Shown in pieces: positions 11,928-29,696 of a DNA stretch of 61,563 nucleotides. Source of the DNA: Pyrodictiaceae archaeon (GTDB lineage Archaea > Thermoproteota > Thermoprotei_A > Sulfolobales > WANQ01); NCBI GenBank assembly GCA_015521735.1, contig WANQ01000041.1, positions 81,347 through 142,909 on the forward strand, given 5' to 3'. Each line of letters opens with the position of its first letter. Position 1 is the first letter of the stretch. Below the pieces are notes generated by a model that had not been told where the DNA came from, did no database searches, and was given only the letters and a program-made list of their open reading frames with translations. The position numbers and the translations under genes were made by a program.

Positions 11928-12641
11928 CTAGAATATCAGGTATGCTTTCTTTAGTCTTTCATCCTTCATAAGCTTTTGTGCTTCACCTTCAAGTACTATC
12001 CTTCCTTGCTCCAATACGTATGCGTAATCCGCTATCTCAAGGCTATGTTTTACGTGTTGCTCTACTAGTAGGATTGTTTTCTCTGCTTCATCTCTAAGTT
12101 TTTTGACTACATCGAATATCTGTATTACTATTTTTGGAGCTAGTCCTAGGCTTGGCTCATCAAGTAATAGTACGTCGGGTCTAGACATGAGTGCTCTAGC
12201 TATAGCAAGCATTTGTGCTTCACCACCAGATAATGTACCTGCTATTTGGTTACGTCTCTCCTTAAGCTTAGGGAATATATTGTAAACCATTTCCAGTGTA
12301 TCCTCTAGTTTCTCCCATGCACGCTTAGTAATAGCTCCTGCAACAAGATTCTCATACACAGTTAGCGTACGGAAGACTCTCCTTCCTTCAGGAACCATGC
12401 TTAATCCTAGCTCAACTCTCTTGTGAGTAGGCATACGTGTAATGCTTCTACCATTGAATACTATGTCTCCGGAGTAGAGTGTTGTCATACCCATGATTGT
12501 GCGTAGAGTAGTTGTTTTACCAGCACCATTAGGTCCTACAATTGCAACTATTTGTCCTCTCTCAACCTTAGCGCTTACATCAAATAGTACTCTGAATTCA
12601 CCATAACCTGCATTCACGTTCTTAAGCTCAAGTAAAGCCAT
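11928..12641 (-). CDS. livF: HAAT-type ABC transporter ATPase LivF
   Basis: An ABC ATPase of about 237 residues. Walker A is GPNGAGKTT, the signature is LSGGEAQMLAIARAL, and Walker B is VLLLDEPSLGLAP, with the switch histidine in LLVEQH. The reading frame can open at ATG 12659, but the strong SD GGGAGGTGG lies inside that extension and points to ATG 12641 (MALLELKNV). With LivG it would power the LivHM channel. It ends the eight-gene run that starts with the molybdenum hydroxylase large subunit. Confidence 0.93.
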   Translation of the reverse strand: MALLELKNVNAGYGEFRVLFDVSAKVERGQIVAIVGPNGAGKTTTLRTIMGMTTLYSGDIVFNGRSITRMPTHKRVELGLSMVPEGRRVFRTLTVYENLVAGAITKRAWEKLEDTLEMVYNIFPKLKERRNQIAGTLSGGEAQMLAIARALMSRPDVLLLDEPSLGLAPKIVIQIFDVVKKLRDEAEKTILLVEQHVKHSLEIADYAYVLEQGRIVLEGEAQKLMKDERLKKAYLIF

Positions 12642-12658
12642 ACACCATCCACCTCCCA

Positions 12659-13390
12659 TTACAATGGTTTTGTCCCGAGATAAGCCTCGATAACCTTAGG
12701 ATCACTTGCAACTTGTTGTGGTGAGCCTTCAGCGATTTTCCTTCCCTGATGCATTACTACTATTCTATCGCTTAACCCCATAACAAACCTCATCACATGC
12801 TCTACTACTATCATTGTTATCTTCTTCTCATCTCGTATCCTCAATAAGACCTTGGCTAGTCTATCCATTTCATGGGGCCTTAAACCAGCGGCAACCTCGT
12901 CTAGTAATAGTAGTTTAGGTTCTGTTGCAAGAGCTCTAGCTAGGTCTACTAGCTTATGTTCTATTAATGTTATTTCTGATCCAAGTCTACTCCACTTCTC
13001 CTTCTCTATTCCAACAAATTCTAGAACCTCCTTAGCCTTCTCTTGAGCAGAATCAACATCTGGGATTCTTAGTAATGCGCCAACAGTAACTGCGTCTAGT
13101 ACAGTTAGCTTCTTGAAAGGCCTAACTTTCTGCCATGTCCTAGCAATTCCCTTCTGTATTATTACGTGTGGTGGTAGACCAGTAATCTTCTCATCCATGA
13201 AGTATACATCTCCTTCATCTGGACGATACACACCAGTAATACAGTTGAATAAAGTAGTCTTACCAGCACCATTAGGTCCTATAAGACCTAGTATTTCATT
13301 CTCATATACCTCCATACTCATATGGTCTACTGCTACTATACCACCAAACCTCTTAACAACATCCACGACTCTTAAAACAGTTTTAGGCAT
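12659..13390 (-). CDS. livG: HAAT-type ABC transporter ATPase LivG
   Basis: A 243-residue ABC ATPase with Walker A GPNGAGKTT and Walker B LLLLDEVAAGLRP, plus a VVEHVM switch. The signature region reads LTLIEHKLVDLARAL in place of a canonical LSGGQ; LivG proteins are known to vary here, so this need not mean loss of function. The ATG start follows GGGGGTGA. It is separated from livM by 15 bases and abuts the extended livF frame. Confidence 0.93.
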   Translation of the reverse strand: MPKTVLRVVDVVKRFGGIVAVDHMSMEVYENEILGLIGPNGAGKTTLFNCITGVYRPDEGDVYFMDEKITGLPPHVIIQKGIARTWQKVRPFKKLTVLDAVTVGALLRIPDVDSAQEKAKEVLEFVGIEKEKWSRLGSEITLIEHKLVDLARALATEPKLLLLDEVAAGLRPHEMDRLAKVLLRIRDEKKITMIVVEHVMRFVMGLSDRIVVMHQGRKIAEGSPQQVASDPKVIEAYLGTKPL

Positions 13391-13405
13391 GGGTATTCAC
13401 CCCCA

Positions 13406-14395
13406 TTAGGATTTAAGCCATGGGATTCTCTTCTTTACATACTCTATTAGGCTAGCAAGTCCCTCGGGCTTGAGTACACCTACTACTATTAGTATAATAC
13501 CGTATACTAGTAGGTGTGATCCAGGATACTGTGAGCCTATAGTTCCTCTTAAATAGTCTTCAAGTGTTCTAAGAATCATACCCGACATTACTGCTCCTTC
13601 AACTGATCCTAAACCGCCCACTATACCCATTACAGCTGTTGTTATACCTAGCCATGGGTCAAAGTTGCGATAGCCTACTACACCAGTAATACACACGTAT
13701 ATTCCGCCTATGATACTTGCTAGTGTAGCATATATCATTAACGCGTACAATTTGTATCTTCTAACATCGATTCCTAGTGCTTCAGCTGCTAACTCGTCTT
13801 CACGTATAGCGTTGAGATAGTATCCTAGCTTTGAATGCCTTATCCTATAGTTAATCCATAACACTATTGCCAGCATTACTACTAGCATGTAGTAGAATGG
13901 CTCGTAGCGGTTAAATCTTAGGTAGAACCATGACCACTCATATGTTGGTAGATATGTTTCTGTTGAACCATAGATTAACCAGTATATTCTACTAAGTATT
14001 ACTACCAATGCTGCGGTTAGCAGTGCGTACCATACCTCCTTTATACCAAACCTAAATGTTGGGTAACCTACTGCTACAGCTACGCCAAGAGCAATTAGTA
14101 CTCCAATAGGAATTCCAAGCCATGGTGTTAACCCATAGAATGCTAGTAGGTTACCTGTAACAACTGCTCCAAGAGCCATGTAGGCTGATGCAGCTAGATC
14201 TAGTTGTCCAGCATACCCGCCGATAATGTTCCATGCAGCTACAAGTGATGCTATAAGTATTATGTCTGTTGCTAGGTAGACATAGTATGTGTTAAATCTT
14301 AGTAGTGCTGGTACAGTTGAAAGTATTAGCGCGAATACTATTATTCCGTAGAAGTTTCTACGAGGTATACCTAGGATTTTATTTGGTTTAGCCAT
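13406..14395 (-). CDS. livM: HAAT-type ABC transporter permease LivM
   Basis: A polytopic permease with the LivM core: IGGYAGQLDLAASAYMALGAV near the second helix, FRFGIKEVWYALLTAALVVIL, and the coupling-helix region YYLNAIREDELAAEALGIDVRRYKL facing the ATPase. Family substrates include branched-chain amino acids, urea and amides. The frame opens at ATG 14404, but GGAGGT lies one base before that codon and nine bases before ATG 14395, so I chose 14395. It forms the channel with LivH. Confidence 0.93.
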   Translation of the reverse strand: MAKPNKILGIPRRNFYGIIVFALILSTVPALLRFNTYYVYLATDIILIASLVAAWNIIGGYAGQLDLAASAYMALGAVVTGNLLAFYGLTPWLGIPIGVLIALGVAVAVGYPTFRFGIKEVWYALLTAALVVILSRIYWLIYGSTETYLPTYEWSWFYLRFNRYEPFYYMLVVMLAIVLWINYRIRHSKLGYYLNAIREDELAAEALGIDVRRYKLYALMIYATLASIIGGIYVCITGVVGYRNFDPWLGITTAVMGIVGGLGSVEGAVMSGMILRTLEDYLRGTIGSQYPGSHLLVYGIILIVVGVLKPEGLASLIEYVKKRIPWLKS

Positions 14396-14413
14396 GTCCC
14401 TCATACCTCCATG

Positions 14414-15289
14414 TCATCTTCTACCAAATAGTCCACGTGGCCTAAACCATAGGATTAGGAAGAATGTTAAGTAGATGAATAGTTCACGTGCACCAGCACT
14501 TACAACTGATATTCCTATAGCCTCTATTACACCTATTATTAGACCCGATGCTAGTACACCTATAACTCCTCCAAGACCACCCATAGCGACTATAACCCAT
14601 GATAGTAGACCGTATAGTAGTCCTAGGTAGGGGTCTGCACGACTAAACGTCATTATGAGTGCTGCAGCTAGAGCTGTAAGCGATATACCTAGGCCAAAGG
14701 TTACAGCATAGACTTTCTTTACGTTAATGCCCATTAGCTCAGCTACTTCACGGTCATCAGCAGTTGCCCTCATAGCTATACCCCACTTTGTCCTAGTTAG
14801 CAACATGTGTACTAGGAATAATGCTACTAAGCTAACAATACCAGCAACTAGTCTTGAAGCAGCAATAGTTATTGGGCCAACGTTTATTGGGAACCCGAAG
14901 ACAGTGAAGGGTACACCTCGTGGCTCAGCCTTAAATATCATTAATGCTAGGTTTCTTAAAACCATTAGCAAGCCTACTGTTACAGCTATCTGTATTAGTG
15001 GCTCAGCTCCCAGCACTCTCTCAATTATACCCTTATACACAGCAACACCTATAACAAAGAATAACGGCATTGTAATAAACGCTGTTAGTGTTGGGTCAAC
15101 TAGCAATGTTGTTGCTAGAAGAAATGTTAGATATGCTCCAATCATTACGAAGTCTCCGTGAGCAAAGTTTATAATATCCATGACGCCGAAGATTAATGCT
15201 AGCCCTAGTGCTACTAGAGAGTATATTAGCCCCATGAACACGCCATTAACTATGTTTTGTACTAATAGCATGGGCTCAACACTTATCAT
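14414..15289 (-). CDS. livH: HAAT-type ABC transporter permease LivH
   Basis: A 291-residue permease with the typical LivH N-terminus NGVFMGLIYSLVALGLALIF followed by GVMDIINFAHGDFVMIGAYL, and the coupling-helix segment AMRATADDREVAELMGINVKK. The ATG start has SD GGAGTGAT directly upstream. A T-rich region and TATA-like element lie between livK and this gene, so it may have both read-through and its own promoter. Confidence 0.93.
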   Translation of the reverse strand: MISVEPMLLVQNIVNGVFMGLIYSLVALGLALIFGVMDIINFAHGDFVMIGAYLTFLLATTLLVDPTLTAFITMPLFFVIGVAVYKGIIERVLGAEPLIQIAVTVGLLMVLRNLALMIFKAEPRGVPFTVFGFPINVGPITIAASRLVAGIVSLVALFLVHMLLTRTKWGIAMRATADDREVAELMGINVKKVYAVTFGLGISLTALAAALIMTFSRADPYLGLLYGLLSWVIVAMGGLGGVIGVLASGLIIGVIEAIGISVVSAGARELFIYLTFFLILWFRPRGLFGRR

Positions 15290-15390
15290 ATCACTCCTGC
15301 ACCTCTAAGTAAGACTAAGTACCTACTAGCACTGAATACGAGGCTTGCATGGAAGAGTGGTAGAACAGGTAAGAGGTTAGGGGAAGTGGT

Positions 15391-15397
15391 AAAAAAA
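15391..15397 (-). terminator. T7 tract between livK and livH (probable attenuator/terminator)
   Basis: After the livK stop the minus strand has a GTTTTTCTC run and then seven consecutive T (15397-15391). T-rich tracts end transcription in archaea. Placed after the binding-protein gene it would leave more livK than livHMGF message, the usual stoichiometry of such systems. A TATA-like GGTATAAACAA lies just before the T tract on the same strand. Confidence 0.5.
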
Positions 15398-15431
15398 GCA
15401 TTTGTTTATACCTTGAGAAAAACGTTAAGTT

Positions 15432-16796
15432 TTAGCCTCCGCCTTTCCAGTCAGGCCTTGGGAATACGGGTTCTATGCCTGGTTCTGGGTCAGGCCATAC
15501 TACGTGTGGTTCACCGTTAATTACCTGTATAATGGCTGTTCCAGCATATAGGTTGTCGCCGTTAGGTGCAAACTTTATACGTCCTGTCGGATATAGCTGT
15601 GCGGCAATACTGTTGTTGTCATTTAAGTCTAATGCTAGGAATGCTTCACGTAGGTGGTCTGGGTTTAATGGGTCGTCTGGATACATTTCAGCAGCTTTCT
15701 CTAATGCTTCTTTAACAACCATTAATGAGTAGAAGACTATTCCAGCAGCTTCTGTTGGTAGCTTACCGTAGCGTTTCTTGAACTCTTCTACAATCTTCTT
15801 ATTCCACTCTGTTGGTCTAGCTGGGTTGTAGCTATAGGTGTTAGTGTACCATTCAACTGCTTCTCCTGCTGCCTTAATTGATTCTGGATCAGTGTATCCA
15901 CAAGCTCCTGCACCAGCTATGAACATTGGGTGGAAGCCCATGGCCTTAATGGTCTTAGCTATTAGTACTGCATCGTGGAAGTATGGTACTGAGATAACAA
16001 TGTCTGGGTTAAGCTCCTTGAGCTTTGATACTAGTGGTGTAGCATCAGCTATATCGTATGGGTACTCGATGTGGTCTAGTATCTTTACACCATACTCCTT
16101 TAGCTTTAATATAGCACCTTGTGCAACATAGTGGCCGAATATTGAGTCTTCGTTCATTACTACAGCTGTTTTTATCTCAAGTCCCTTCTTCTTAGCCATC
16201 TCCATGACGAATTCAACAGCGGATTTACCGTGAGCACTAGCTTTTGGTGCTGCTCTAAAGACGTATTTCCATCCCTGCTCTGTTAGTGAGTCAACTAGAC
16301 CATCCATTATTAGTATTACTTTTTCTCTCTCAGTAACCTCAGCTACAGCAGCTGTAAGCCTGCTAATATATGCTCCTAGAATTATTGGTGGGTGTTCTTC
16401 AGCAATAAGCTTCTCAGCAGCAAGCTTAGCGCTTTCGGGAGTCTCGCCTGCATCAGCTACTACTAGCTTAAGCTTTGCTCCACCAAGGTTCTTTATACCG
16501 CCTAGCTCGTTGTTGATTATATCTATTATTAGCTCAGCTGCCTGCTTAGCTTCTTGTCCGAAGACAGCGTGTGTACCAGTCAATGGCTCTATGAGGCCTA
16601 TTTTAATTTCAGTAATCTTCGGCTTTGTAGGCGTTGGTGAAGGCGACGTAGTAGGTGATGGTGACGTCGGCGTGGTTGGTGCAGCTGGTTGTTGTGTTGC
16701 ATAATATGCTGCGATTCCTATAATTATAACGATAACAATTATTGCAATAGCTATGCTAGCAGTTTTTGATATACCTAAATTGAGTATTGCAGGCAT
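15432..16796 (-). CDS. livK: Membrane-tethered substrate-binding protein LivK
   Basis: A 454-residue type I periplasmic-binding protein. An N-terminal hydrophobic anchor (about 10-32) is followed by a Pro/Thr/Ser-rich linker (33-60) and then the two-lobed domain starting at EIKIGLIEPLTGTHAVFGQEA. This is the usual archaeal way to hold a binding protein outside the membrane. The HAAT family binds leucine-type amino acids, urea, amides or aromatic compounds. Its location directly after molybdenum hydroxylase genes suggests that the ligand could be the hydroxylase substrate (inference). It has its own promoter-like region and T tracts on both sides. Confidence 0.92.
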   Translation of the reverse strand: MPAILNLGISKTASIAIAIIVIVIIIGIAAYYATQQPAAPTTPTSPSPTTSPSPTPTKPKITEIKIGLIEPLTGTHAVFGQEAKQAAELIIDIINNELGGIKNLGGAKLKLVVADAGETPESAKLAAEKLIAEEHPPIILGAYISRLTAAVAEVTEREKVILIMDGLVDSLTEQGWKYVFRAAPKASAHGKSAVEFVMEMAKKKGLEIKTAVVMNEDSIFGHYVAQGAILKLKEYGVKILDHIEYPYDIADATPLVSKLKELNPDIVISVPYFHDAVLIAKTIKAMGFHPMFIAGAGACGYTDPESIKAAGEAVEWYTNTYSYNPARPTEWNKKIVEEFKKRYGKLPTEAAGIVFYSLMVVKEALEKAAEMYPDDPLNPDHLREAFLALDLNDNNSIAAQLYPTGRIKFAPNGDNLYAGTAIIQVINGEPHVVWPDPEPGIEPVFPRPDWKGGG

Positions 16797-16914: not shown

Positions 16915-17379
16915 TTATCTCTTGAAATGTTTTGCAGCTTCTAGTACTGCTTCAATAATCTTCTTATAACCTGTACACCTGCATAGATTACCTTCAAGAG
17001 CTTTTCTAACCTCTTCTTCACTGGGATTAGGGTTCTCTTTGAGTAGTGCGTAAGCTGTGAGTAGGAATCCTGGTGTACAGAATCCGCATTGTATAGCGGC
17101 TTTATCTACGAATGCTTTTATTAGTGAGTCTAGTTCTCCAGTTGATGCTAGGTATTCTACTGTTACTATTTCATGTCCATTAACTTGTGGTGCTAGTATA
17201 GTGCACGAGTAAACGGGTTTACCATCAAGTAGTACTGTGCATGCACCACATTCTGCTCTTTCACATCCACGTTTAACGCTCTTTACTCCCAGCTTTAACC
17301 TTAGTACATCTAATAGTATCTCGTTTGGCTTTACGTCAACTGTTACAGGTTTACCATTTAGTTTAAAGCTTATCCTCAC
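16915..17379 (-). CDS. Molybdenum hydroxylase small subunit, two [2Fe-2S] clusters (system 1)
   Basis: A 154-residue subunit of the xanthine dehydrogenase/CO dehydrogenase family. The plant-ferredoxin-like motif CERAECGACTVLLDGKPVYSC holds one cluster, and the C-terminal CGFCTPG plus CRCTGY hold the second. It passes electrons from the molybdopterin subunit to the FAD subunit. The GTG start follows GGGGTGA. It lies seven bases after the FAD subunit gene and ends before livK. Confidence 0.95.
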   Translation of the reverse strand: MRISFKLNGKPVTVDVKPNEILLDVLRLKLGVKSVKRGCERAECGACTVLLDGKPVYSCTILAPQVNGHEIVTVEYLASTGELDSLIKAFVDKAAIQCGFCTPGFLLTAYALLKENPNPSEEEVRKALEGNLCRCTGYKKIIEAVLEAAKHFKR

Positions 17380-17385
17380 GTGTAA

Positions 17386-18267
17386 TCACCCCTCAATCTT
17401 ATATCCTATTCTCTCAAGTGATTTTAGGAGGGAGTCACGTGTAAGAATAATTGACATTTCTCTACGGTATTCTGCTGAAGCTCTAACATCACTTATAGGC
17501 GATATATCGTTGACAACAAACTTGGAAGCCTCCTCTATAGCCTCCAAGGATACCTTTTTACCCTTCAATGCCTCCTCTACACTTCTAGCTCTCACAGGTT
17601 TAGGTGCAACTGAGTTTAAGGCTACCCTTACGTCCTTGAACTTTCCATTCTCTACCTTTACTAGTGTAGCAACAGCTACTATTGATAATGTGAAAGCAGA
17701 TCTCCTACCAAGCTTTATCATTGACGACCCAGCATCTTTCTCGTATGGTACTATGATTTCTGCTAATAACTCATTCTTCTTTAACACTGTTTTACGTGGT
17801 CCTAGGAAGAATTCTGTTACTGGTACAATTCTTTCACCATCCTTGCTTACGAGTTTAAGTTTTGCTTCAAGAACCATTAGTGGTGGTGCTGTATCTGCTG
17901 CTGGAGAAGCATTACAGAGATTACCGCCAATGGTTGCAACATTTCTTATCTGCCATGAAGCCATCTGGTATATTGCTTCTGCTAATACTGGAGCCTTAGT
18001 TCTAACTATTGGTGACTCCATTATGTTTTGTAGCTTTGCTAGTGCTCCTATCCTTACATAGTCTCCTTCATCTACTATGTAGTCTAGTTCCTTGATCTCA
18101 GATATATCTACTATATTCCTTGGCTTATACCTACCTATCCTTAAATCCATTACTAGGTCTGTTCCACCAGCAATTACCTTAAAGTCCTCTAACCTGTCTA
18201 CTAGTTCTAGTGCTTCCCTTAGAGTTGAAGCCTTATAGTAGTTGAATTCCGGTAACCTATAGAACAC
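17386..18267 (-). CDS. Molybdenum hydroxylase FAD subunit (system 1)
   Basis: A 293-residue FAD-binding subunit. Typical segments are FNYYKASTLREALELV, the FAD loop VIAGGTDLVMDLR and the second FAD motif NVATIGGNLCNASPAADTAPPL. The C-terminal domain ends in ASAEYRREM. It would hand electrons on to an acceptor such as ferredoxin or a quinone. The GTG start follows GGGGTGACC. It sits between the large and small subunit genes with gaps of seven and six bases. Confidence 0.95.
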   Translation of the reverse strand: MFYRLPEFNYYKASTLREALELVDRLEDFKVIAGGTDLVMDLRIGRYKPRNIVDISEIKELDYIVDEGDYVRIGALAKLQNIMESPIVRTKAPVLAEAIYQMASWQIRNVATIGGNLCNASPAADTAPPLMVLEAKLKLVSKDGERIVPVTEFFLGPRKTVLKKNELLAEIIVPYEKDAGSSMIKLGRRSAFTLSIVAVATLVKVENGKFKDVRVALNSVAPKPVRARSVEEALKGKKVSLEAIEEASKFVVNDISPISDVRASAEYRREMSIILTRDSLLKSLERIGYKIEG

Positions 18268-18274
18268 GATGAGG

Positions 18275-20620
18275 TCACCCCTTTCTACTCTTTATTAGGA
18301 AGAAGACGTTTTCAGGTGTAAGTGGTAGTTTTGTTACACGTACTCCTAGAGCATGTGAAACAGCATTTGCTATGGCAGCTGGTACAGGTATTAATGCCAT
18401 TTCACCTACACCTTTAGCTCCAAAGGGTCCGTAGCGGAACAGGTCTTCCACGTATACTGGCTTCTCTATCCTTGGTATATCGAGTGCTGTAGGTATGACG
18501 TAGTCTGTTAGATCAGCGTTAACTATCCTACCCTTCTCGTCAAAGACGAATTGCTCCATGAGCACATAGCCCATTCCCTGAACAATCGCACCCTCCATTT
18601 GTGCTTCAACTTGCACTGGATTAATTATTCTTCCAGCAGCTAGTGCCGGCCATGCTCTCAGCACCTTTACTATTCCAGTATGAGTGTCTACTTCAACTTC
18701 TACTGCAACCGCTACGTAGCTGTAAGCTGGGTAGGCGTAGCCTTGGCCTTTCACATCGTCAAATGTACCTTTGGGTAGGAAGAAGTATCCAGTAGCTGAT
18801 AGGTCTACTCCACGCGTATATGCTAGCTTTACTATTTCATCCCACGTCATTGATGGTTCTTTTCTTCCTCTCGGGTGAGCTACTCCATTCTCTATTACTA
18901 CTTCGTCTGGGCTAATCCTTAATGCTTCTGCTACTAACTTGTTAATTCTTTCTCTTATCCTAGCAGCTGCTACTAGTACGCCTATAGCACCAATACTTGT
19001 TCCACGAGAAGCATGTGTAGCACCAGTATCGGGTGCATCACTTGTACCGAATACCACTTTTACCTTGTCTAATGGTGCTCCCAGTATTTCAGCTGCTATT
19101 TGCCTATGACTACTATTAGGTGATCCCTGCCCCATCTCTATTATTCCGGTAAACACAGTGACGCTTCCATCCTTATCTATCTTTATGTAAGCATTGCTCC
19201 AGTCAGGTACTCCACGACTAGTACTTATACCGTGCCATCCAACACCAATTCCTATACCACGCTTGTATCTCTTACTCCTAGCATTGTATTCCTCTATCTC
19301 CTTCCTCCTCTTAGACCACTCCATGGTTTTAGCGAGCTTTTCTACTGCTTCAGCTATCCCGACTGAGTGGTCTAGTAGCTGGCTAGTAATGGTTAGTTGC
19401 CCTGGTCTTAGCAGATTCTTTAACCGGAACTCTACTGGATCCATGCCTAGCTTACGTGCTAGTTCATCCATTTGTGATTCTGCTGCAAACTGTACGCTTG
19501 GGTTACCGAATCCTCTAAATGAGCCTTGGGGTACCTTGTTAGTGTATACACAGTAGCCGTCAACTTTAGCGTTTGGTACATTGTATGGGCCAGAGGCATG
19601 GACTGTTGCTCTCCATAGTATGTATGGTCCACGGTTAGCGTATGCTCCAGTATCATGTATTATGGTTACTTCTATTGCAGTTAGCTTGCCATCCTTTGTA
19701 GCACCTGACTTATACTTTATTATAGTTGCTTCTCTCTTAGGATGCATTCTAATAGATTCTTCACGTGTGTACATTAAGAATACTGGTTTATGTGTATGGT
19801 ATGCTACTAGTGCTGCTTTAGCTGCAACTAGTGGTCCTTCATCGTCTTTACCACCAAAGCCTCCTCCAAGGTAGGGTATGATGACCTTTATGTTACTCAT
19901 AGGTATTCCTAGAACTCTTGATACAATTGACTGTACTAGATGTGGGTATTGGCCAGCTGTTATTAGGGTGAGTCTACCATCTAGTTCTGGTATTGCTATT
20001 GCACCCTCTGTTTCAAGGTATAAGTGCTCTTGGTGGTGTGTACGGTACTCGTTTTCTACCACTACATCTGCTTTAGCAAACCCCTCTTCAACATTGCCTT
20101 TCCTAACCTTTGTTCTAAAAGCAATGTTTGAGCCCATTTCATCGTGAACTAATACATCCTTACGTTTCATTGCTTCAAGTGGGTCTAAGAGTACTGGTAG
20201 AGGCTTGTACTTTATCCTTACAGCTTCAGCTGCCTTAAACGCTTTGTCTATGTCTTCTGCTACTACGAGTGCTATTGGTTCGCCATGGTATCTTACCTTT
20301 CTTTCAGCTAGTAGTGGTTGATCTGGTAGAGCGTATCCTACCTGGTTTTCTCCAGGAATATCCTTTGCCGTATATACTCCTACAACACCTGGAATCCTTA
20401 GTGCTTCACTAACATCTATTTCCTCTATTAGTGCGTGGGGCTCAGTACTCCATACTTGTTTAACGAATAGCATGTGTTCTTCAAAGTAGTCTTCAACGAA
20501 TTTCGCTCTACCTAGTGCTTTATCCAAGGAATCTGCTCTGGTAATCCCCTTACCTACTACTATGAACTCCTTAGCTTTAAGCCACTTCTCTATTAGAAAA
20601 TAGGGGTCCTCTACAGCCAA
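18275..20620 (-). CDS. Molybdenum hydroxylase molybdopterin subunit (system 1)
   Basis: A 781-residue catalytic subunit. The Mo-pocket motifs are canonical: HHQEHLYLE (195-203), GGGFGGKDDEG (252-262), the GSFRGFGNP arginine loop and the catalytic glutamate Glu740 in GAKGVGE. Lack of the AYRCSFR loop excludes form I CO dehydrogenase. Members hydroxylate purines, N-heteroaromatics or aldehydes with water as oxygen donor; archaeal relatives include glyceraldehyde oxidoreductase. The TTG start has SD GGAGGTGG six bases away. It heads the run L-M-S-livKHMGF. Confidence 0.94.
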   Translation of the reverse strand: MAVEDPYFLIEKWLKAKEFIVVGKGITRADSLDKALGRAKFVEDYFEEHMLFVKQVWSTEPHALIEEIDVSEALRIPGVVGVYTAKDIPGENQVGYALPDQPLLAERKVRYHGEPIALVVAEDIDKAFKAAEAVRIKYKPLPVLLDPLEAMKRKDVLVHDEMGSNIAFRTKVRKGNVEEGFAKADVVVENEYRTHHQEHLYLETEGAIAIPELDGRLTLITAGQYPHLVQSIVSRVLGIPMSNIKVIIPYLGGGFGGKDDEGPLVAAKAALVAYHTHKPVFLMYTREESIRMHPKREATIIKYKSGATKDGKLTAIEVTIIHDTGAYANRGPYILWRATVHASGPYNVPNAKVDGYCVYTNKVPQGSFRGFGNPSVQFAAESQMDELARKLGMDPVEFRLKNLLRPGQLTITSQLLDHSVGIAEAVEKLAKTMEWSKRRKEIEEYNARSKRYKRGIGIGVGWHGISTSRGVPDWSNAYIKIDKDGSVTVFTGIIEMGQGSPNSSHRQIAAEILGAPLDKVKVVFGTSDAPDTGATHASRGTSIGAIGVLVAAARIRERINKLVAEALRISPDEVVIENGVAHPRGRKEPSMTWDEIVKLAYTRGVDLSATGYFFLPKGTFDDVKGQGYAYPAYSYVAVAVEVEVDTHTGIVKVLRAWPALAAGRIINPVQVEAQMEGAIVQGMGYVLMEQFVFDEKGRIVNADLTDYVIPTALDIPRIEKPVYVEDLFRYGPFGAKGVGEMALIPVPAAIANAVSHALGVRVTKLPLTPENVFFLIKSRKG

Positions 20621-20731: not shown

Positions 20732-20989
20732 GTGAAATCGTTGCATACTAGAAGTGAATATTTCTCAGATGTAAAGGTCTTTAAATTAAGTGAGCTTAAA
20801 CCTAGTGTAAGAGAAGAGATAGCTGAATTAGTGGTAGGCTTAAGTGAAGATGAAGTACGTGTCTACGTGCTCAACTATACTCCTATGAGGTTACAGAAGT
20901 TGTTTAGTGAGCTACGTAAGAGGGGCTGTAAAAGAGTGTTAGGATCAATTGTTGTTTCCGGGGAACTCTATGTTGTATGTGTAGTTTAA
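20732..20989 (+). CDS. Small protein of unknown function in the hydroxylase locus
   Basis: An 85-residue protein from GTG. Two strand-helix units are suggested by KVFKLSELKPSVREEIAEL then DEVRVYVLNYTPMRLQKLFSELRKRGCKRVLGSIVVSGELYVVCVV, a pattern that recalls small TusA/DUF2249-like alpha-beta folds; I do not claim the family. It lies in the divergent gap upstream of hydroxylase system 1 and its stop overlaps the end of the convergent amidohydrolase by four bases. It is probably a real gene, since no other frame explains this stretch. Confidence 0.55.
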   Translation: MKSLHTRSEYFSDVKVFKLSELKPSVREEIAELVVGLSEDEVRVYVLNYTPMRLQKLFSELRKRGCKRVLGSIVVSGELYVVCVV

Positions 20990-22353
20990 CTTGTTTTAGG
21001 AGTATACCTTATCCATTGACCTCTAGGTCCTCCAGTAACCTCGCCGTTTCTTGCAATTATTGCTCCACGAAGTATAGTGTACTCTATTCTACCCTTTAGC
21101 CTCCACCCTATGAATGGTGATAGTGGGTGTTTTGAGTGGAAGTCTTCTTCTCGAATAATTGTCTCTGATCGCGGGTCTACTACGACCATGTCTCCGTCGC
21201 TTCCAATAGTTATTGTGCCCTTCTTAGGGTATAGGTTGAAGAGTTTAGCAGGATTAGCTGATAGTAGTTCTGGGATCTTAGTTAATGGTATTTTACCTCT
21301 AAGTGCTTGGTCTATCATTAGTGGTAGTAGTGTTCTAACACCTGGGAAGCCTGCTGCAGCTTCCCATACATTCTTTTCCTTTTCTTCTCTAGCATGTGGT
21401 GCGTGGTCTGAGCCTATGTTTGTTATAGTACCATCTAGTACTGCTTTCCACAGTGCTTCTTGGTGTTCTCTTGACCTTATTGGTGGGTTAACCTTCATTA
21501 GTGTACCATACTTGTCGTAGTCATCGCTTGATAATAGCAGGTAGTGTGGATTTGTTTCACCCCAAATGTTTACTCCTTCACTTCTAGCCTTCCTCAACGC
21601 TTCTACTGCTTCAAGAGCGCTCATGTGGACTATTAGTGCTATCCCTCTTGTCTTCTTAGCGTAGTACGCTATGCGTATAGTTGCCTCTTCTTCACATATT
21701 GGTGGACGTGCATCCATGTGTGCTTTTGGATCCATTCTACCAGTAGCTTTAACTTTCTCGGTGAAGTATTTTACAAGGCTCCAGTTCTCGGCATGGAATG
21801 CTATTGGTGTTTTTAGTTTAGCTGACTTAAGTAGTGCTTCATATATTGTTGCATCACTTGGTGCTGGTATGTTACCAGTAGTTGGTCCTAGGAATATCTT
21901 GAAGCCTATAGCACCAGCATAGACCATTTCCTCGAACTCATCTATGTTCCCGTCATGGATTACACCGTAGAGTGCAAAGTCAACATATGCTTTACTTGCT
22001 AGTAGATGTGCCTTCTCCAACAATACTTTACGGTTTTCTACTGGTGGTAGAGTATTAGGCATTTCCAGAACTGTTGTAACGCCCCCGGAAGCTGCATCCA
22101 TTGTCCCATTAGTGAAGTTGTCCTTGTATTCTAGTCCAGGCTCCCTCATATGCACGTGTTCATCGACTACTCCAGGTAACACTAGTTTGCCTTCAACGTT
22201 GAGTACGTCGACTCCTCTAGGAGGTTCTAGTTCTCTACCAATCCTAGTAACTTTTCCATCTTCTACTAGTATGTCTACATCCTCTAATATGCCTTCAGGT
22301 AGAACTAGTCTTGCATTACGTATAAGTATGCTGTCACCTCCCATAATGTACAC
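20986..22353 (-). CDS. Cyclic amidohydrolase (dihydroorotase/allantoinase superfamily)
   Basis: A 455-residue metal-dependent amidohydrolase. It shows HVHMREPG for the first metal histidines and a substrate-carboxylate arginine, GFKIFLGPTTG with the lysine expected to be carboxylated, the HAEN and HMSALEAVEA histidines and the GSDHAPHAREEK aspartate. HMREPG and DHAPH resemble dihydroorotase, while the KIFLGPTTGN loop and HAEN resemble allantoinase/hydantoinase, so the ring opened cannot be named. No pyrimidine gene cluster surrounds it; it lies between two molybdenum hydroxylase operons. An SD-like GGGAGGTGA lies inside the frame, so the true start may be later. Confidence 0.88.
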   Translation of the reverse strand: MYIMGGDSILIRNARLVLPEGILEDVDILVEDGKVTRIGRELEPPRGVDVLNVEGKLVLPGVVDEHVHMREPGLEYKDNFTNGTMDAASGGVTTVLEMPNTLPPVENRKVLLEKAHLLASKAYVDFALYGVIHDGNIDEFEEMVYAGAIGFKIFLGPTTGNIPAPSDATIYEALLKSAKLKTPIAFHAENWSLVKYFTEKVKATGRMDPKAHMDARPPICEEEATIRIAYYAKKTRGIALIVHMSALEAVEALRKARSEGVNIWGETNPHYLLLSSDDYDKYGTLMKVNPPIRSREHQEALWKAVLDGTITNIGSDHAPHAREEKEKNVWEAAAGFPGVRTLLPLMIDQALRGKIPLTKIPELLSANPAKLFNLYPKKGTITIGSDGDMVVVDPRSETIIREEDFHSKHPLSPFIGWRLKGRIEYTILRGAIIARNGEVTGGPRGQWIRYTPKTS

Positions 22354-22587: not shown

Positions 22588-24969
22588 TTGTCTAAGATAA
22601 TTCTGCCTAAGAGGCTTGAAAAATACCGTTACATAGGCAAGAACACTATTAGACATGACGGTATTGCCAAGGTTACTGGGAAGCTAAAGTACGCCTACGA
22701 TATCTATCTTCCAGGAATGCTTTATGGAAGAATACTTAAGAGCCCATACCCTCATGCTAGGGTTAAGAAGATTGATACTAGTGAAGCAGAGAAAATGGGT
22801 GCCGTAGTAGTAACGTTTAAGGATGTACCACGGAAGAAGTTCAATATAAGGCTTGTAAGCGTTGATGAAGTAAACTACAAGGATTGGGAGGTACTAACGG
22901 ATCACCCAAAATTTGTTGGAGAATACATTGCAGCTGTAGCAGCTGAAACCGAGGAGCTTGCTCAAAAGGCATTAGAAGCCATAAAGATTGAATGGGAGGT
23001 TTACGAGCCACTACTTGACCCATTAGAGTCTATGACTCCTGGTAAGCCTAAGATACATGATAAGATACTCTTTGGTCAGAGAGAAGTTGAGGTTAAAAAC
23101 AATATAGCTTGTACCAAGGAATACGTTGAAGGCGATCCTGATAGAGCTTTCAAGGAAGCAGACATCGTTATTGAGAGAGTGTTTAAGACTAATAGACGAT
23201 ACCATATGCAGTTAGAGCCTAAGGTTGCAGTAGTTAGACCTGAACCCGATGGAGGAGTAACTATTTGGACTACTACTCAGACAATCCATAATACTAAGAT
23301 CCTGGTATCACAGGTATTCGATATACCTATGAGTAAGGTCAACGTAATAAAACTACCCATAGGCGGTAGCTTTGGTTCAAGTATACAGACTAATCTCGTA
23401 GTACTTGTAGCTGTAGCCTTAGCACTTAAGGCTCGTAGACCTGTTAGAATAGCCTTAACTAGAGAAGAAGATATACTAGACCATCATTCTTATCAAATGA
23501 TATTTAAGGTTAGAGTTGCAGCTAAGAAGGATGGAACGATTATTGCAGGTGAGCTAGAGAATATTATGGATATTGGCGCTCACCAAATACAGGCTTATCC
23601 ATTGCTAGGTACGGCTTTAGGCTGGTTTGTATCGCTTTATAAGTGGAAGAATATTAGGTATAAGGGTATAGCTGTATATACTAATAAGACTCCTTCATGT
23701 GCGTTTAGGGGGTATGGTAATCCTCAGGTAACGTGGGCTGTTGAAACAGTTATTGATGAGTTAGCTGAGAAGCTTGGTATAGATCCATTAGAGCTTAGGC
23801 TTAAGAACTATGTTGGTCGTGGAGACATATTCTGGGGTCAAGGCCCAACGGTTAAGTCTGTTATACGTAGTGATGGTGTTCCAGAGCTGATTAGGAAGGG
23901 TGCAGAGCTAATAGGGTGGGATAAGAGGCCTAAGCCTGGTTCACAGAAGGGTAGGTATCGTAGAGGTATTGGTGTAGCAAGAGGATTCCATACTAGTGGT
24001 GCTGGTGGACCATTATCAGGTGAGGTCATAGATTATACTGGAGCTATAATTAAGGTTAACGAGGACGGCACAATAGACTACATAACAGCATTACAAGACC
24101 ATGGTGGTGGAACTCTTGATGCTCACGCCAAGATTATTGCTGAGGAGCTTGGAGTACCGTTGAAGAGTATTAATATTGTGTGGGCTGATACTAGGACAAC
24201 ACTATACGATGTATGTACGCATGCTTCACGTGGAGTATATGTTGGAGGTGAGGCTGCTAGACGTGCAGCTAGAATAGTTAAGCAGAAGCTTCTAGAATAT
24301 GCTGCCAGGATTCTAGGAGACATTGCTACTCCTGAAGGGCTTAGAATAGAACCTGACGAGGAACTTGGCCAAGGAGTAATATATGTTGAGGGAAGCCCTG
24401 AGAAGAGGATAACTGTTGGAGAAGTCGCTCGTATAGCTTGGCAAAGGAATTGGGGTAGTATTGCAGCTGCTGTAAGCTATAGATCCTATGCTGCTCCACC
24501 AGCATTCACAGTGTATTTCGTAGAAGTTGAGGTGGATACTGAGACAGGTATTGTTAGGCCTGTTAGAGTTGTTGCTGGAGCAGATATAGGTACAGTAGTT
24601 AATCCTGATTTAGCGGCAGGTCAAATACATGGAGGTTTTGCTCAAGGATGGGGTATGGCTACTCTAGAAGACCTACCTTATGATCCAGAGACTGGTGAGC
24701 TAATGAATAGAGGATTCATAACTGACTACAAGGTTGTTACTGCACCAGATATGCCTAAACTAGATGACTTCATAGTAATCTTTGCTGATACAGAAGAGCC
24801 TACGGGCCCACTAGGAGCTAAGGGTATTGGTGAAGCAGCTAAGAATCCTGTAGCAGCTGCTGTTGCAAATGCAATATACAATGCTATTGGTGTAAGGTTT
24901 TATGAGCTACCCATAACACCTGAGAAGATTTTGAAAGCATTGAAGGAGAAGGGTGAGATTAAGGAGTAG
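22588..24969 (+). CDS. Molybdenum hydroxylase molybdopterin subunit (system 2, divergent)
   Basis: A 793-residue catalytic subunit. The overall fold motifs are present, including AFRGYGNPQ and the catalytic glutamate Glu749 in GAKGIGE. The Mo-pocket loop, however, reads GGSFGSS (259-265) instead of GGGFGGK, and the QEHxYLE segment is replaced by RRYHMQLEP. A cysteine precedes the arginine loop (PSCAFRGYG). These changes surround the substrate, so it likely accepts a different compound from system 1. The TTG start follows GGAGGCGAGGT. It heads an L-M-S operon that continues toward the carbamoyltransferase. Confidence 0.92.
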   Translation: MSKIILPKRLEKYRYIGKNTIRHDGIAKVTGKLKYAYDIYLPGMLYGRILKSPYPHARVKKIDTSEAEKMGAVVVTFKDVPRKKFNIRLVSVDEVNYKDWEVLTDHPKFVGEYIAAVAAETEELAQKALEAIKIEWEVYEPLLDPLESMTPGKPKIHDKILFGQREVEVKNNIACTKEYVEGDPDRAFKEADIVIERVFKTNRRYHMQLEPKVAVVRPEPDGGVTIWTTTQTIHNTKILVSQVFDIPMSKVNVIKLPIGGSFGSSIQTNLVVLVAVALALKARRPVRIALTREEDILDHHSYQMIFKVRVAAKKDGTIIAGELENIMDIGAHQIQAYPLLGTALGWFVSLYKWKNIRYKGIAVYTNKTPSCAFRGYGNPQVTWAVETVIDELAEKLGIDPLELRLKNYVGRGDIFWGQGPTVKSVIRSDGVPELIRKGAELIGWDKRPKPGSQKGRYRRGIGVARGFHTSGAGGPLSGEVIDYTGAIIKVNEDGTIDYITALQDHGGGTLDAHAKIIAEELGVPLKSINIVWADTRTTLYDVCTHASRGVYVGGEAARRAARIVKQKLLEYAARILGDIATPEGLRIEPDEELGQGVIYVEGSPEKRITVGEVARIAWQRNWGSIAAAVSYRSYAAPPAFTVYFVEVEVDTETGIVRPVRVVAGADIGTVVNPDLAAGQIHGGFAQGWGMATLEDLPYDPETGELMNRGFITDYKVVTAPDMPKLDDFIVIFADTEEPTGPLGAKGIGEAAKNPVAAAVANAIYNAIGVRFYELPITPEKILKALKEKGEIKE

Positions 24970-24986
24970 TTGAGGGGTGTTATGTT

Positions 24987-25916
24987 ATGGTTAAAACAGT
25001 TGTAATTAAGCCTAAAGTTGATATTAATAAGGTTAATACACATATACTACCAGTAGACTTTGAGTACTATGAGCCTAGGACTCTAAGAGAACTAGTAGAA
25101 CTACTTGATAAGCTTGGCCCATCAGCCAAGATACTTGCTGGTGGAACAGATCTACTTGTTCAGATTAAGCAGAGAGCTGTAGAGCCCAAGTATGTTGTGA
25201 ATATTAAGAAGGTAAGGGAATTGGATTTCATAGAGGATCGTGGAGACTACTTAGCAATAGGTGCAGTTACAAGGCTTAGAGCTATTGAGAAGAACTCGTT
25301 GATAGCTGAAAAGTTTACTGCACTCCATGAAGCAGTAAGGGCCATGGCTGGTGTACAAATACGTAATATGGCTACTATTGGCGGTAACCTCTGTAATGCT
25401 TCTCCAGCAGCAGATACAGCACCACCACTAATGGTGTTTGATGCAGAGTTAAAGATAGTGGGACCTGGATACGAGAAGGTTATCCCTATTACACAGTTCT
25501 TTAAGGGGCCTAAGAAGACTGTGTTAAAGTATAATGAAGTATTAGCTGAGATAAGAATACCGTATCCTAAGCCTCCAACGGGTTCCGCTTTTATAAAGAT
25601 TGCTAGAACTGCTATGGATTTAGCTAAGGTTAACGTGGCTGTTGCGTTAAGAGTTGACGAAGACGACTATATTAGGTGGATTAGGGTTACATTAGGGTCT
25701 GTTGCTCCAACTCCAGTGAGGGCTAGGAGTGTAGAGGAAGAACTAATTGATAAGAGGTTTTCTGAGGAAATAGTTCGTAAGGCTTCAAGACTTGTTGTCA
25801 ACGATATATCGCCTATAACGGATATACGTTCTACTGCTGAGTATCGTAGAGAGGTGTCTAAGGTTATTGTACGTGATGCACTTTTAATAGCATATAAACG
25901 TGTAAGAGGGGTGTAA
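24987..25916 (+). CDS. Molybdenum hydroxylase FAD subunit (system 2)
   Basis: A 309-residue FAD subunit with KILAGGTDLLVQIK, RNMATIGGNLCNASPAADTAPPL and a C-terminal TAEYRREVSKVIVRDAL. It has about 20 more N-terminal residues than the system 1 subunit. The ATG follows GAGGGGTG closely. It is 17 bases from the large subunit and five from the small one, so the three are clearly one operon. Confidence 0.94.
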   Translation: MVKTVVIKPKVDINKVNTHILPVDFEYYEPRTLRELVELLDKLGPSAKILAGGTDLLVQIKQRAVEPKYVVNIKKVRELDFIEDRGDYLAIGAVTRLRAIEKNSLIAEKFTALHEAVRAMAGVQIRNMATIGGNLCNASPAADTAPPLMVFDAELKIVGPGYEKVIPITQFFKGPKKTVLKYNEVLAEIRIPYPKPPTGSAFIKIARTAMDLAKVNVAVALRVDEDDYIRWIRVTLGSVAPTPVRARSVEEELIDKRFSEEIVRKASRLVVNDISPITDIRSTAEYRREVSKVIVRDALLIAYKRVRGV

Positions 25917-25921
25917 TCTCG

Positions 25922-26410
25922 ATGGAGCGTAGGATTAGGTTTAGGCTTAATGGGGAATGGGTTGAGGTTACAGTTAAACCTAATGAGCTATTACTTAACG
26001 TGCTACGCGAGAAGTTCGGGTTAACTGGGCCTAAGTATGCTTGTGGTATAGGAGAGTGTGGTGCGTGTACAGTACTTGTTGATGGTGAACCAGTACTAGC
26101 ATGTCTTACGCTAGCAGTTGATGTTGATGGAAGAGATGTGGTTACAATAGAGGGTTTAGCTAGGGATGGTGAACTACATCCACTACAAAAGGCGTTCTTA
26201 GAGCATGGAGCAATTCAGTGTGGCTACTGTATACCAGGGTTCATAATGGTTGCTAAGAGATTGTTGGAGGAGAATCCTTATCCTAGTGAAGAAGAAATAC
26301 GCGAGTACATTAGAGGCAATATATGCCGTTGTACTGGGTATGTAAACATAGTTAAAGCCATAAAAGCAGCTGCTGAAAGCCTTAGAGCAGGAAGTAGCTC
26401 CCATACCTAA
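25922..26410 (+). CDS. Molybdenum hydroxylase small subunit, two [2Fe-2S] clusters (system 2)
   Basis: A 162-residue subunit with the first cluster motif CGIGECGACTVLVDGEPVLAC and the second cluster motifs CGYCIPG and CRCTGYV. It relays electrons from the Mo centre to FAD. The short Ser-rich C-terminal tail is unremarkable. The carbamoyltransferase starts about 80 bases later on the same strand, so co-transcription is plausible but not certain. Confidence 0.95.
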   Translation: MERRIRFRLNGEWVEVTVKPNELLLNVLREKFGLTGPKYACGIGECGACTVLVDGEPVLACLTLAVDVDGRDVVTIEGLARDGELHPLQKAFLEHGAIQCGYCIPGFIMVAKRLLEENPYPSEEEIREYIRGNICRCTGYVNIVKAIKAAAESLRAGSSSHT

Positions 26411-26491
26411 ACTTAAACATAGTTTTTCCTCCAATCAATTAAATATTTAAGCTTGCTCCTTAACCTTAAATCCATATGGTAGGTGTGGGAT

Positions 26492-27415
26492 ATGAGCCTT
26501 AAGGGTAAGGATATAATCTCAGCTCTACAGTTTACACGTGAAGAAGTAGAATACCTCTTCAGGTTAGCTGAGAAGCTTAGAAAGGAAATAGATGAGAAAG
26601 GAATACTAGACTACGCTAAAGGGAAGATAATGGTTACAGCATTCTTTGAGCCAAGTACAAGAACTAAGCTTAGCTTCCAGTTTGCTATGAAGAGGCTTGG
26701 GGGAGAAGTAATAGATTTTGAGGTAACTACGTCTAGTCTAGCTAAGGGCGAAACAGATATTGACACGTTAAGAATTATTGATGGATATAATCCAGACGTT
26801 ATAGTGTTGAGGCAGAAGAAGCCTCATTTCCCAGAGCAAATAGCGCCTATGATAAAGGCTCCAATAATAAATGGTGGTGATGGCTGGAATGAGCATCCAA
26901 CACAAGCACTATTAGACGTTTATACTATTTGGAGAGAGTTCGGCTATGTTGATGGATTAACTATTGGTATTATGGGTGACTTAAAGTATGGTAGAACACC
27001 TAGTAGTCTCTCCTACCTGTTATCGAAATTTAAGGATATAACGATATACTATATTGCACCACAACCCTTACAGATAAGAGATGAAGTAGTTGAGAAGATT
27101 GAGGGAAAGGTGACTTACTATAAGGTTGAGAAGCTTGAGGAGGTAATAGACAAGCTAGATGTACTGTATGTTACAAGGCTTCAAAAAGAAAGGCTACCGG
27201 ACCCGTCAATGTATGAGAAGCTTAAGGGTATATACAAGGTTGATTTACAAGTACTTGCTAAGGCAAAGAAGATACCAGTTATAATGCATCCACTACCCAG
27301 GACATGGGAGCTTGATGTAAGTGTTGATAACTTAAGGCAAGCTAGATACTTTGAGCAAGCACAAAATGGAATGTATATTAGAGCAGCATTACTTAAGGAG
27401 GTATTAGGAGTTTAA
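26492..27415 (+). CDS. Aspartate/ornithine-family carbamoyltransferase, divergent paralogue
   Basis: About 307 residues. Carbamoyl-phosphate motifs FFEPSTRT, SLAKGE, HPTQ and HPLPR are present, as are GDLKYGRT and TRLQKER of aspartate transcarbamylases. Differences stand out: the usual RHPxEGA is RQKKPHF, NQHPTQ is NEHPTQ, ESLADT is ETDIDT, and HPLPRVDEI is HPLPRTWEL. No pyrI regulatory subunit follows; a hairpin terminator does. It could be the biosynthetic PyrB, but the altered loops and the neighbours favour a catabolic transcarbamylase that makes carbamoyl phosphate (inference). I chose ATG 26492, downstream of GTG 26483, because GGTG precedes it. Confidence 0.85.
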   Translation: MSLKGKDIISALQFTREEVEYLFRLAEKLRKEIDEKGILDYAKGKIMVTAFFEPSTRTKLSFQFAMKRLGGEVIDFEVTTSSLAKGETDIDTLRIIDGYNPDVIVLRQKKPHFPEQIAPMIKAPIINGGDGWNEHPTQALLDVYTIWREFGYVDGLTIGIMGDLKYGRTPSSLSYLLSKFKDITIYYIAPQPLQIRDEVVEKIEGKVTYYKVEKLEEVIDKLDVLYVTRLQKERLPDPSMYEKLKGIYKVDLQVLAKAKKIPVIMHPLPRTWELDVSVDNLRQARYFEQAQNGMYIRAALLKEVLGV

Positions 27416-27425
27416 GAGATACAAT

Positions 27426-27449
27426 GTTCCATGGGAACTTATTTTTTAT
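27426..27449 (+). terminator. Hairpin-plus-T-tract terminator after the carbamoyltransferase
   Basis: A perfect 5-bp stem GTTCC-ATG-GGAAC (27426-27438) is followed by TTATTTTTTATA. This looks like an intrinsic terminator and ends the system 2 transcript 10 bases after the stop codon. A second T-rich run (CTATTTTTATT) follows at about 27454-27464. Confidence 0.6.
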
Positions 27450-28813: not shown

Positions 28814-29683
28814 TCATGGATTAGTGAATAAGTACTCGTATTCTCTAGGTAAGCTACAGCATGCGTTTATTACGCGTAGATTATAGTCTTTAACTATACT
28901 TAGTGGTGGATTAGCTATTCTATCAACTAGTTTACTGCTAACAACTATTTTATCTAGTTCAAGCCTATATTTACCCCAAGGCCTCATACAGCCTAAACCT
29001 ACTTCTCCTTTAGAGACTCTTTTAAGGTACTTTAGAACACTTAATACGTAATCTACTCTGGGTTCTGGGTCTTTATGTGAGTGTGTACCTGGTGTAGGAG
29101 TATATATTAGTGCTACTATTAGGTAGGGGTTGTAGTCTCTTAGAAAATCTATCTCAGAGAACTCGTTGCCAAGAAGCCCTAGACTAGATCCTATAATTAT
29201 GTGGGGAGCAATGTATTCTGGGCCCTCAAGATATAATGCTTTAAGTGATTCAGCCATTTTATCAATAAATTTTTCTCCAAGACCCTTAACAACACTAGTA
29301 TAAGTAGGGTTCAAGGAGAACTCAAAGTCTACTACATCTACTCTAGCCTCTCTAAGCATACGAGCTTCACTAACATCCACTAGGCCTGAGTGAATGCTAA
29401 TAACTACCTCATACCTAGACTTAAACTCACGGATAACATCTAGGAAGCCATGGAATGGAAGCTTACCTTCTCGAGTAAACCCACCACTAATAAGAAAACC
29501 TCTAACACCTTCACGGTAAAGTCTCCTCATAAGCCAATATAGTTGTTGAGGAGTAAGAGCACTAGGCATGTGTTTTAGATAGGTTCTACTACAATACCTA
29601 CAATTAAGAGCACATCCAATACCAGTAATACTAATAGACACGTATTTAGGATAGGGTATGTAAGCAGTAACCATAAGCATCAA
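28814..29683 (-). CDS. Radical SAM protein, probable lipoyl synthase component (LipS1/LipS2 type)
   Basis: A 289-residue radical SAM enzyme with Cys24-X3-Cys28-X2-Cys31 (CALNCRYC) and an SGG SAM-contact motif at FLISGGFTREG. Extra cysteines near the C-terminus (GLGCMRPW and NACCSLP) could hold an auxiliary iron-sulfur cluster, which a sulfur-inserting enzyme needs. In Thermococcus two radical SAM proteins, LipS1 and LipS2, together make lipoyl groups and replace classical LipA. This gene is 13 bases from a second radical SAM gene and downstream of lplA/lplB, which strongly suggests that role. I cannot assign LipS1 versus LipS2. Confidence 0.75.
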   Translation of the reverse strand: MMLMVTAYIPYPKYVSISITGIGCALNCRYCSRTYLKHMPSALTPQQLYWLMRRLYREGVRGFLISGGFTREGKLPFHGFLDVIREFKSRYEVVISIHSGLVDVSEARMLREARVDVVDFEFSLNPTYTSVVKGLGEKFIDKMAESLKALYLEGPEYIAPHIIIGSSLGLLGNEFSEIDFLRDYNPYLIVALIYTPTPGTHSHKDPEPRVDYVLSVLKYLKRVSKGEVGLGCMRPWGKYRLELDKIVVSSKLVDRIANPPLSIVKDYNLRVINACCSLPREYEYLFTNP

Positions 29684-29696
29684 CTCAGGTAAAACA

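Follow-up and report, generated by a model that had tools for sequence, protein, structure and literature searches.

In textbooks, aspartate carbamoyltransferase (ATCase, PyrB) is the enzyme of the committed step in pyrimidine biosynthesis; its equilibrium strongly favours N-carbamoyl-aspartate. In the Escherichia coli enzyme, E109 bonds N111 of the regulatory chain and D271 bonds Y240 in the T state (PMC6056424). Genuine ATCases are recognised by an HPLP motif together with R-x-Q, and ureidoglycine carbamoyltransferases by H(T/S)LP (PMC4016543, PMC4581275). Catabolic, phosphorolytic transcarbamylases are also known, for example YgeW of the bacterial reductive uric acid pathway, in a report whose main text does not mention archaea (PMC12507026). 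In Thermococcus kodakarensis, carbamoyl phosphate is obtained from arginine via ornithine carbamoyltransferase (PMC13260591). The literature searched holds no description of an ATCase recruited to catabolism, and nothing relevant on carboxymethylhydantoin pathways, catabolic ATCase or PyrI-less Desulfurococcales.

The locus described here lies in a stretch of 61,563 nucleotides, called the window, on contig C41 of a Pyrodictiaceae archaeon genome (2.03 Mb, 44 contigs, estimated completeness 100%). Genomes are denoted by G-numbers, with G000 for the window's own genome, stretches or loci by L-numbers and families by f-numbers. The reading preferred here, held with moderate confidence and drawn from sequence comparison, is that a PyrI-less archaeal ATCase works catabolically beside a dihydroorotase-type amidohydrolase in genomes that have lost the pyrimidine pathway (pyr-minus), and biosynthetically in relatives that possess PyrD, PyrE and PyrF.

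The carbamoyltransferase and its active site

An intact open reading frame on the forward strand (26492..27415) encodes a 307-residue, ATCase-type carbamoyltransferase, as judged from domain matches, alignment and tree. It starts with the ATG at 26492, an alternative GTG being located at 26483. The product matches both transcarbamylase Pfam domains and scores 336 bits against TIGR00670 (aspartate carbamoyltransferase; cut-off 237), and its nearest solved proteins are ATCases (PDB 1ml4 and 2rgw). Fold family and length are those of PyrB, as are the DLKYGRT, TRxQKER and HPLPR motifs.

Residues were compared with E. coli PyrB (L090) as reference. All carbamoyl phosphate contacts (S52, T53, R54, T55, S80, K84, R105, H134 and Q137) are kept, as the original prediction had stated for the core residues, and so are all aspartate contacts (R167, R229, Q231, L267 and P268). 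Both sets are unchanged across the whole clade described below, in which one member's sequence ends before position 267. This complete set of contacts leaves unsupported the suggestion, made when the gene was initially read, that a different amino-group acceptor is used. The protein also reads HPLP and TRLQKER, the pattern of genuine ATCases rather than of pseudo-ATCases; together with the aspartate contacts, these motifs speak against a ureidoglycine carbamoyltransferase or other pseudo-ATCase.

That suggestion had been based on four altered motifs, and each of them reads as reported: RHPxEGA has become RQKKPHF, NQHPTQ is NEHPTQ, ESLADT is ETDIDT and RVDEI is RTWEL. The changes are not due to chance, because they are kept in close relatives. 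Sequences outside the PyrBI group normally carry the Glu133 of NEHPTQ, which was present in 80 of 80 homologues from the genome_contigs collection, ruling this motif out as a change of specificity. The positions that are unusual in the window protein are 88, 106-113 (QKKPHFPE), where E109 is replaced by proline, and 271, where tryptophan replaces aspartate. Trp271 was found in none of the inspected sequences from outside the clade, and both it and F111 are confined to the 19 clade members from the window's own order, a subclade marked also by P109. Deeper members mostly carry RHREPG or RSREVG, and RVDEL, the latter retained by most members of families f21, f25 and f37; Trp271 therefore arose within the clade.

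With P109 and W271, both the PyrI contact and the T-state partner are lost. Because E109 and D271 serve the PyrI contact and the T state, the altered positions are most simply read as a loss of PyrI-dependent allostery, which would fit these residues better than a new acceptor and is consistent with the lack of PyrI. W271 and P109-x-F111 may nonetheless adjust the pocket.

The gene had been described as directly followed by a terminator. A terminator-like stem with a T-tract does lie just 3' of it on the same strand (27426..27438), one of 2 such sites in the stretch against 0.6 expected, and it is a weak one with a stem of 5 bp.

Phylogeny and the pyrimidine pathway

In a tree obtained by a quick search, in which the deeper branching is provisional, 29 archaeal proteins form one clade (SH-aLRT 100) beside the canonical PyrBI-type PyrB of related archaea. 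The comparison covered 59 relatives and 398 genomes of the phylum. Homologues within the clade are 56-83% identical, and an identity gap divides them from canonical PyrB (52% or less). A scan of genome_contigs returned a single clade member, L093 (Candidatus Benthortus lauensis), which is the same locus as G261; all other matches were ordinary bacterial and archaeal ATCase relatives. Nearly all genomes with a canonical PyrB have an adjoining PyrI, in agreement with the original prediction, and the absence of PyrI noted for the window holds for the entire genome, the gene not being that of an ordinary PyrBI enzyme. Among the 59 relatives, PyrI was likewise absent from all 15 genomes that carry a clade member. 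A separate pyrB or pyrBI was sought in the window's genome and none was found, the other OTCace_N gene being ArgF (ornithine carbamoyltransferase). Both this result and the grouping of the clade with archaeal PyrB speak against a different amino-group acceptor.

Family-model searches of the whole G000 genome detected no CarB, PyrI, PyrD, PyrE or PyrF, while the models for CarB, PyrD, PyrE and PyrF do detect these proteins in relatives. The PyrD search gave only a distant match of 25 bits, and the sole OMPdecase-family gene encodes hexulose-6-phosphate synthase, not PyrF. The amidohydrolase discussed below is the only dihydroorotase-family match and hence the only PyrC candidate. Since PyrD, PyrE, PyrF and CarB are undetected, the carbamoyltransferase cannot be serving standard UMP synthesis in this genome. 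A carbamate kinase is present (439 bits), encoded outside the cluster. Its gene (L058:9525-14471) lies two genes from an NCS2 xanthine/uracil-type permease and adjoins an arylformamidase/cyclase-like gene.

Elsewhere in the clade the pathway is often present. Of the clade genomes checked, more than half have PyrE, namely seven of the first set (G011, G014, G030, G033, G040, G048 and G050) and a further 13 (G253, G336, G403, G377, G148, G114, G195, G169, G189, G073, G101, G212 and G266). All seven of the first set also possess PyrD, and PyrF was confirmed as such in G014, G030, G040 and G253. The seven have no PyrB candidate besides the clade gene, which is therefore probably their working ATCase; in the other PyrE-positive genomes, too, it is probably the biosynthetic enzyme. 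Those without CarB could obtain carbamoyl phosphate from arginine via ornithine carbamoyltransferase, by analogy with the Thermococcus route. In G253 the clade gene stands beside pyrF-pyrE in divergent orientation. Near its start, the G011 clade gene (L046:9813-10760) is interrupted by an in-frame TAG (SRSDI*EFF), and a single TAG likewise occurs in that genome's ArgF; these codons may reflect sequencing error, decay or TAG read-through.

PyrE was absent in G000, G002, G003, G024, G020, G047, G056, G057 and G261. Four of these genomes (G002, G003, G047 and G056) are only 63-87% complete, and in G024 PyrF was left unclassified. G020 and G057, both 99% complete, lack PyrE, PyrF and a convincing PyrD. 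PyrD-like matches of about 140-150 bits in G001/G002, G020 and G047, and PreA/UacX-like matches in G024 and G057, were not counted as PyrD. On the clade tree the distribution of PyrE needs 5 changes, of which at least 4 are forced by supported branches, giving four or five losses. Between G000 and G002, both pyr-minus, dN is 0.13 and dS is 2.3 (dN/dS about 0.055); the gene is thus under purifying selection despite the lost pathway. The repeated loss of PyrE, together with this low ratio, indicates that the gene has a use beyond UMP in pyr-minus genomes.

Gene neighbourhood

The window gene is located among molybdenum hydroxylases rather than beside pyrI, pyrD, pyrE or pyrF. The order in the window is an ABC transporter (11928-16796), hydroxylase 1 (16915-20620), the amidohydrolase (20986-22353), hydroxylase 2 (22588-26410) and the carbamoyltransferase. 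The transporter, of the branched-chain/urea type, is encoded on the reverse strand by two ATPases (11928..12659 and 12659..13390), two permeases (13406..14404 and 14414..15289) and a substrate-binding protein (15432..16796). On the same strand follow the [2Fe-2S] (16915..17379), FAD (17386..18267) and molybdopterin (18275..20620) subunits of hydroxylase 1 and the cyclic amidohydrolase (20986..22353). Hydroxylase 2 is encoded on the forward strand as molybdopterin (22588..24969), FAD (24987..25916) and [2Fe-2S] (25922..26410) subunits. Downstream of the carbamoyltransferase, at 28814-30680 on the reverse strand, are two radical SAM proteins, homologues of which also follow the gene in f1 relatives (L033, L035). 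A third molybdenum hydroxylase set is encoded elsewhere in the genome (L088:13-3820), its large subunit being about 36-38% identical to those of the window's two.

The cluster was found across many related genera. With rearrangements, the set of hydroxylase 1, amidohydrolase, hydroxylase 2 and carbamoyltransferase recurs at L039, L040, L041, L043, L044 and L045, and it is partly kept at L033, L034, L042, L195, L199, L200, L202 and L203. In three pyr-minus genomes (L039-L041) the stop codon of the hydroxylase 2 Fe-S gene overlaps the start of the carbamoyltransferase gene by ATGA, and the hydroxylase genes were present in every pyr-minus clade genome examined. Two genomes separate the parts: G011 has the amidohydrolase-carbamoyltransferase pair without hydroxylases, and G042 (L077:6066-18439) has the amidohydrolase and both hydroxylases but lacks the carbamoyltransferase, its canonical PyrBI being encoded elsewhere. 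Next to the G042 cluster is a gene of the ornithine cyclodeaminase family.

In G001 an orthologue of the window's ABC transporter adjoins hydroxylase 1, as it does here, and in G020 the five-gene orthologous set (50-68% identity) adjoins carbamate kinase. By context, this placement would tie uptake, oxidation and the use of carbamoyl phosphate together. At G266 (L207:2514-10809), the clade gene is adjoined by a EutA/arylmalonate decarboxylase-like gene and a caprolactamase/hydantoinase A-B-like pair, neighbours that hint at hydantoin or lactam chemistry.

Specificity of the amidohydrolase and the hydroxylases

The best NCBIfam equivalog of the amidohydrolase is allantoinase (TIGR03178, 369 bits against a cut-off of 358), and it scores 347 bits against the dihydroorotase-family cut-off of 279. 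Despite the allantoinase score, its carboxylate triad (HVHMREPG, PNT, SDHAPH) is of the dihydroorotase type, as far as motifs can tell. The Arg, Asn and His of HxHxR, PNT and DHxPH, which we take to hold the carboxylate of dihydroorotate, are kept in 24 of 24 cluster amidohydrolases (the last motif as DHAPH). The full set is missing from AllB and HyuA of E. coli, and the AllB-like pattern (HxHxS, SDHSPC) is not found in the window protein. The cluster enzyme differs from dihydroorotase in being only about 30% identical to the canonical PyrC of relatives. The dihydroorotase triad and the ATCase residues together point to N-carbamoyl-aspartate as a shared intermediate.

Both hydroxylases resemble xanthine dehydrogenase in their three-subunit (Mo, FAD, 2Fe-2S) architecture, catalytic Glu and Arg880-type Arg, and both score below every NCBIfam equivalog cut-off. 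They differ at the position of the purine-anchoring Glu802, which is Asp in hydroxylase 1 (FGGKD) and has no counterpart in hydroxylase 2, where FGSSI replaces FGGKE. Hydroxylase 2 in addition has DHGGGT where EMGQG is expected. The roles of the purine-anchoring Glu and of the EMGQG-site residues are presumed here to be those of the xanthine dehydrogenase family.

The surroundings recall two described systems. As with the Rubrobacter pseudo-ATCase, a ureidoglycine carbamoyltransferase, a PyrB-like gene stands near a hydroxylase and a cyclic amidohydrolase, with carbamate kinase in the genome (PMC4016543); the window protein differs in carrying the HPLP and RxQ of a true ATCase, and neither uricase nor 5-HIU hydrolase was recognised among the window ORFs. 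The logic proposed below, of hydroxylase, cyclic amidohydrolase, phosphorolysis, carbamate kinase and ATP, is shared with the YgeW pathway (PMC12507026), but YgeW is of the AOTC/SOTC type, and the window protein scores 37 bits against the TIGR03316 (ygeW) cut-off of 500.

A separate cluster with AOTC/YgeW-like carbamoyltransferases was observed in archaea of two families (L051:3197-10762, L052:8360-15835, L073:5575-13755 and L076:8614-15982). It comprises one or two carbamoyltransferases, carbamate kinase, an SsnA-type aminohydrolase and a PreA/UacX-like flavoprotein, in some cases with a threonine-synthase-like PLP enzyme, and is similar to the reductive uric acid cluster of bacteria. A second transcarbamylase sometimes occupies the place of YgeY, so that two carbamoyl phosphates might be yielded.

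Proposed pathway and alternatives

We infer the following pathway, its substrate and the direction of its reactions. The two molybdenum hydroxylases would convert an N-heterocycle to a carboxylated cyclic ureide such as dihydroorotate or 5-carboxymethylhydantoin, the ring of which the amidohydrolase would open to give N-carbamoyl-aspartate. The carbamoyltransferase would then carry out phosphorolysis, forming aspartate and carbamoyl phosphate from carbamoyl-aspartate and phosphate, and carbamate kinase, encoded elsewhere in the genome, would turn carbamoyl phosphate into ATP, NH3 and CO2. Because the ATCase equilibrium lies so far towards carbamoyl-aspartate, carbamate kinase must draw the reaction backwards, and the location of its gene outside the cluster in G000 is a point against the model. 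Where a relative has PyrD, PyrE and PyrF, the amidohydrolase and the carbamoyltransferase could run forward to UMP. That the whole amounts to an anaerobic, energy-yielding heterocycle pathway in hyperthermophilic archaea, with two hydroxylases, a dihydroorotase-type enzyme and a reversed ATCase feeding carbamate kinase, is put forward tentatively. A specific form of it, from histidine through imidazole-4-acetate, 5-carboxymethylhydantoin and carbamoyl-aspartate to aspartate and carbamoyl phosphate, is a long shot. An ADP-forming acyl-CoA synthetase is encoded beside the amidohydrolase in f21 genomes, and two f25 genomes have a 2-oxoacid:ferredoxin oxidoreductase and an acyl-CoA synthetase near the clade gene; imidazole-4-acetate is a known archaeal histidine product, on which an acyl-CoA synthetase of Pyrococcus/Thermococcus is active (PMC3942289).

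The catabolic reading has to be weighed against roles in which the pair would still run forward. It is rather unlikely that the enzyme is a plain, unregulated biosynthetic ATCase, with UMP made through PyrD, PyrE and PyrF functions missed by the family models and the hydroxylases being incidental. The two genes are the only PyrB and PyrC candidates of the genome, many clade genomes have PyrD, PyrE and PyrF with no other PyrB or PyrC, and the position beside pyrF-pyrE in G253 and the hydroxylase-free pair in G011 fit such a role. It is opposed by a genome estimated as complete in which four pathway proteins escape models that succeed in relatives, by the same gaps in G020 and G057, and by the retention of the hydroxylase cluster across many genera. 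Quite improbable is an anabolic role outside UMP synthesis, in which the pair would make N-carbamoyl-aspartate or dihydroorotate and the hydroxylases would complete the product. The same genes would suffice, and the equilibrium, as general knowledge, favours synthesis. Carbamoyl phosphate could be supplied by ornithine carbamoyltransferase and carbamate kinase (PMC13260591), yet uptake and breakdown fit better with a solute-binding ABC importer linked to both the cluster and carbamate kinase.

Two further explanations depart from aspartate or from function altogether. It is unlikely that the enzyme serves to break down purines or ureides with a carbamoyl acceptor other than aspartate, be it ureidoglycine, oxamate or some other ureido acid. 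The neighbours are annotated as xanthine dehydrogenase-like molybdenum hydroxylases and as allantoinase, W271 and P109-x-F111 are unusual, and bacterial pseudo-ATCases have been proposed for allantoate (PMC4016543), but the aspartate contacts are all kept and HPLP with RxQ is of ATCase type rather than H(T/S)LP. Purine or urate breakdown by the cluster is disfavoured by the dihydroorotase triad, by the lack of the purine-anchoring Glu in both hydroxylases and by the separate SsnA/ArcC/transcarbamylase (YgeW-type) cluster of several relatives. Finally, the remaining pathway genes are gone, as they would be in an auxotroph whose carbamoyltransferase gene is a decaying remnant of the pyrimidine pathway, a notion that is very improbable indeed: the dN and dS between the two pyr-minus genomes rule out a simple relic, and catalytic residues are intact in pyr-minus genomes that represent four or five independent losses.

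Implications

If the catabolic reading is true, the presence of pyrB would no longer imply pyrimidine synthesis, and the annotation of PyrB- and PyrC-like proteins would change in many archaeal genomes. The clade would offer a simple test case for the conversion of an allosteric enzyme of biosynthesis into a catabolic one, through the loss of PyrI and the exchanges E109P and D271W. It would also mean that a heterocycle is used by hyperthermophiles for energy.
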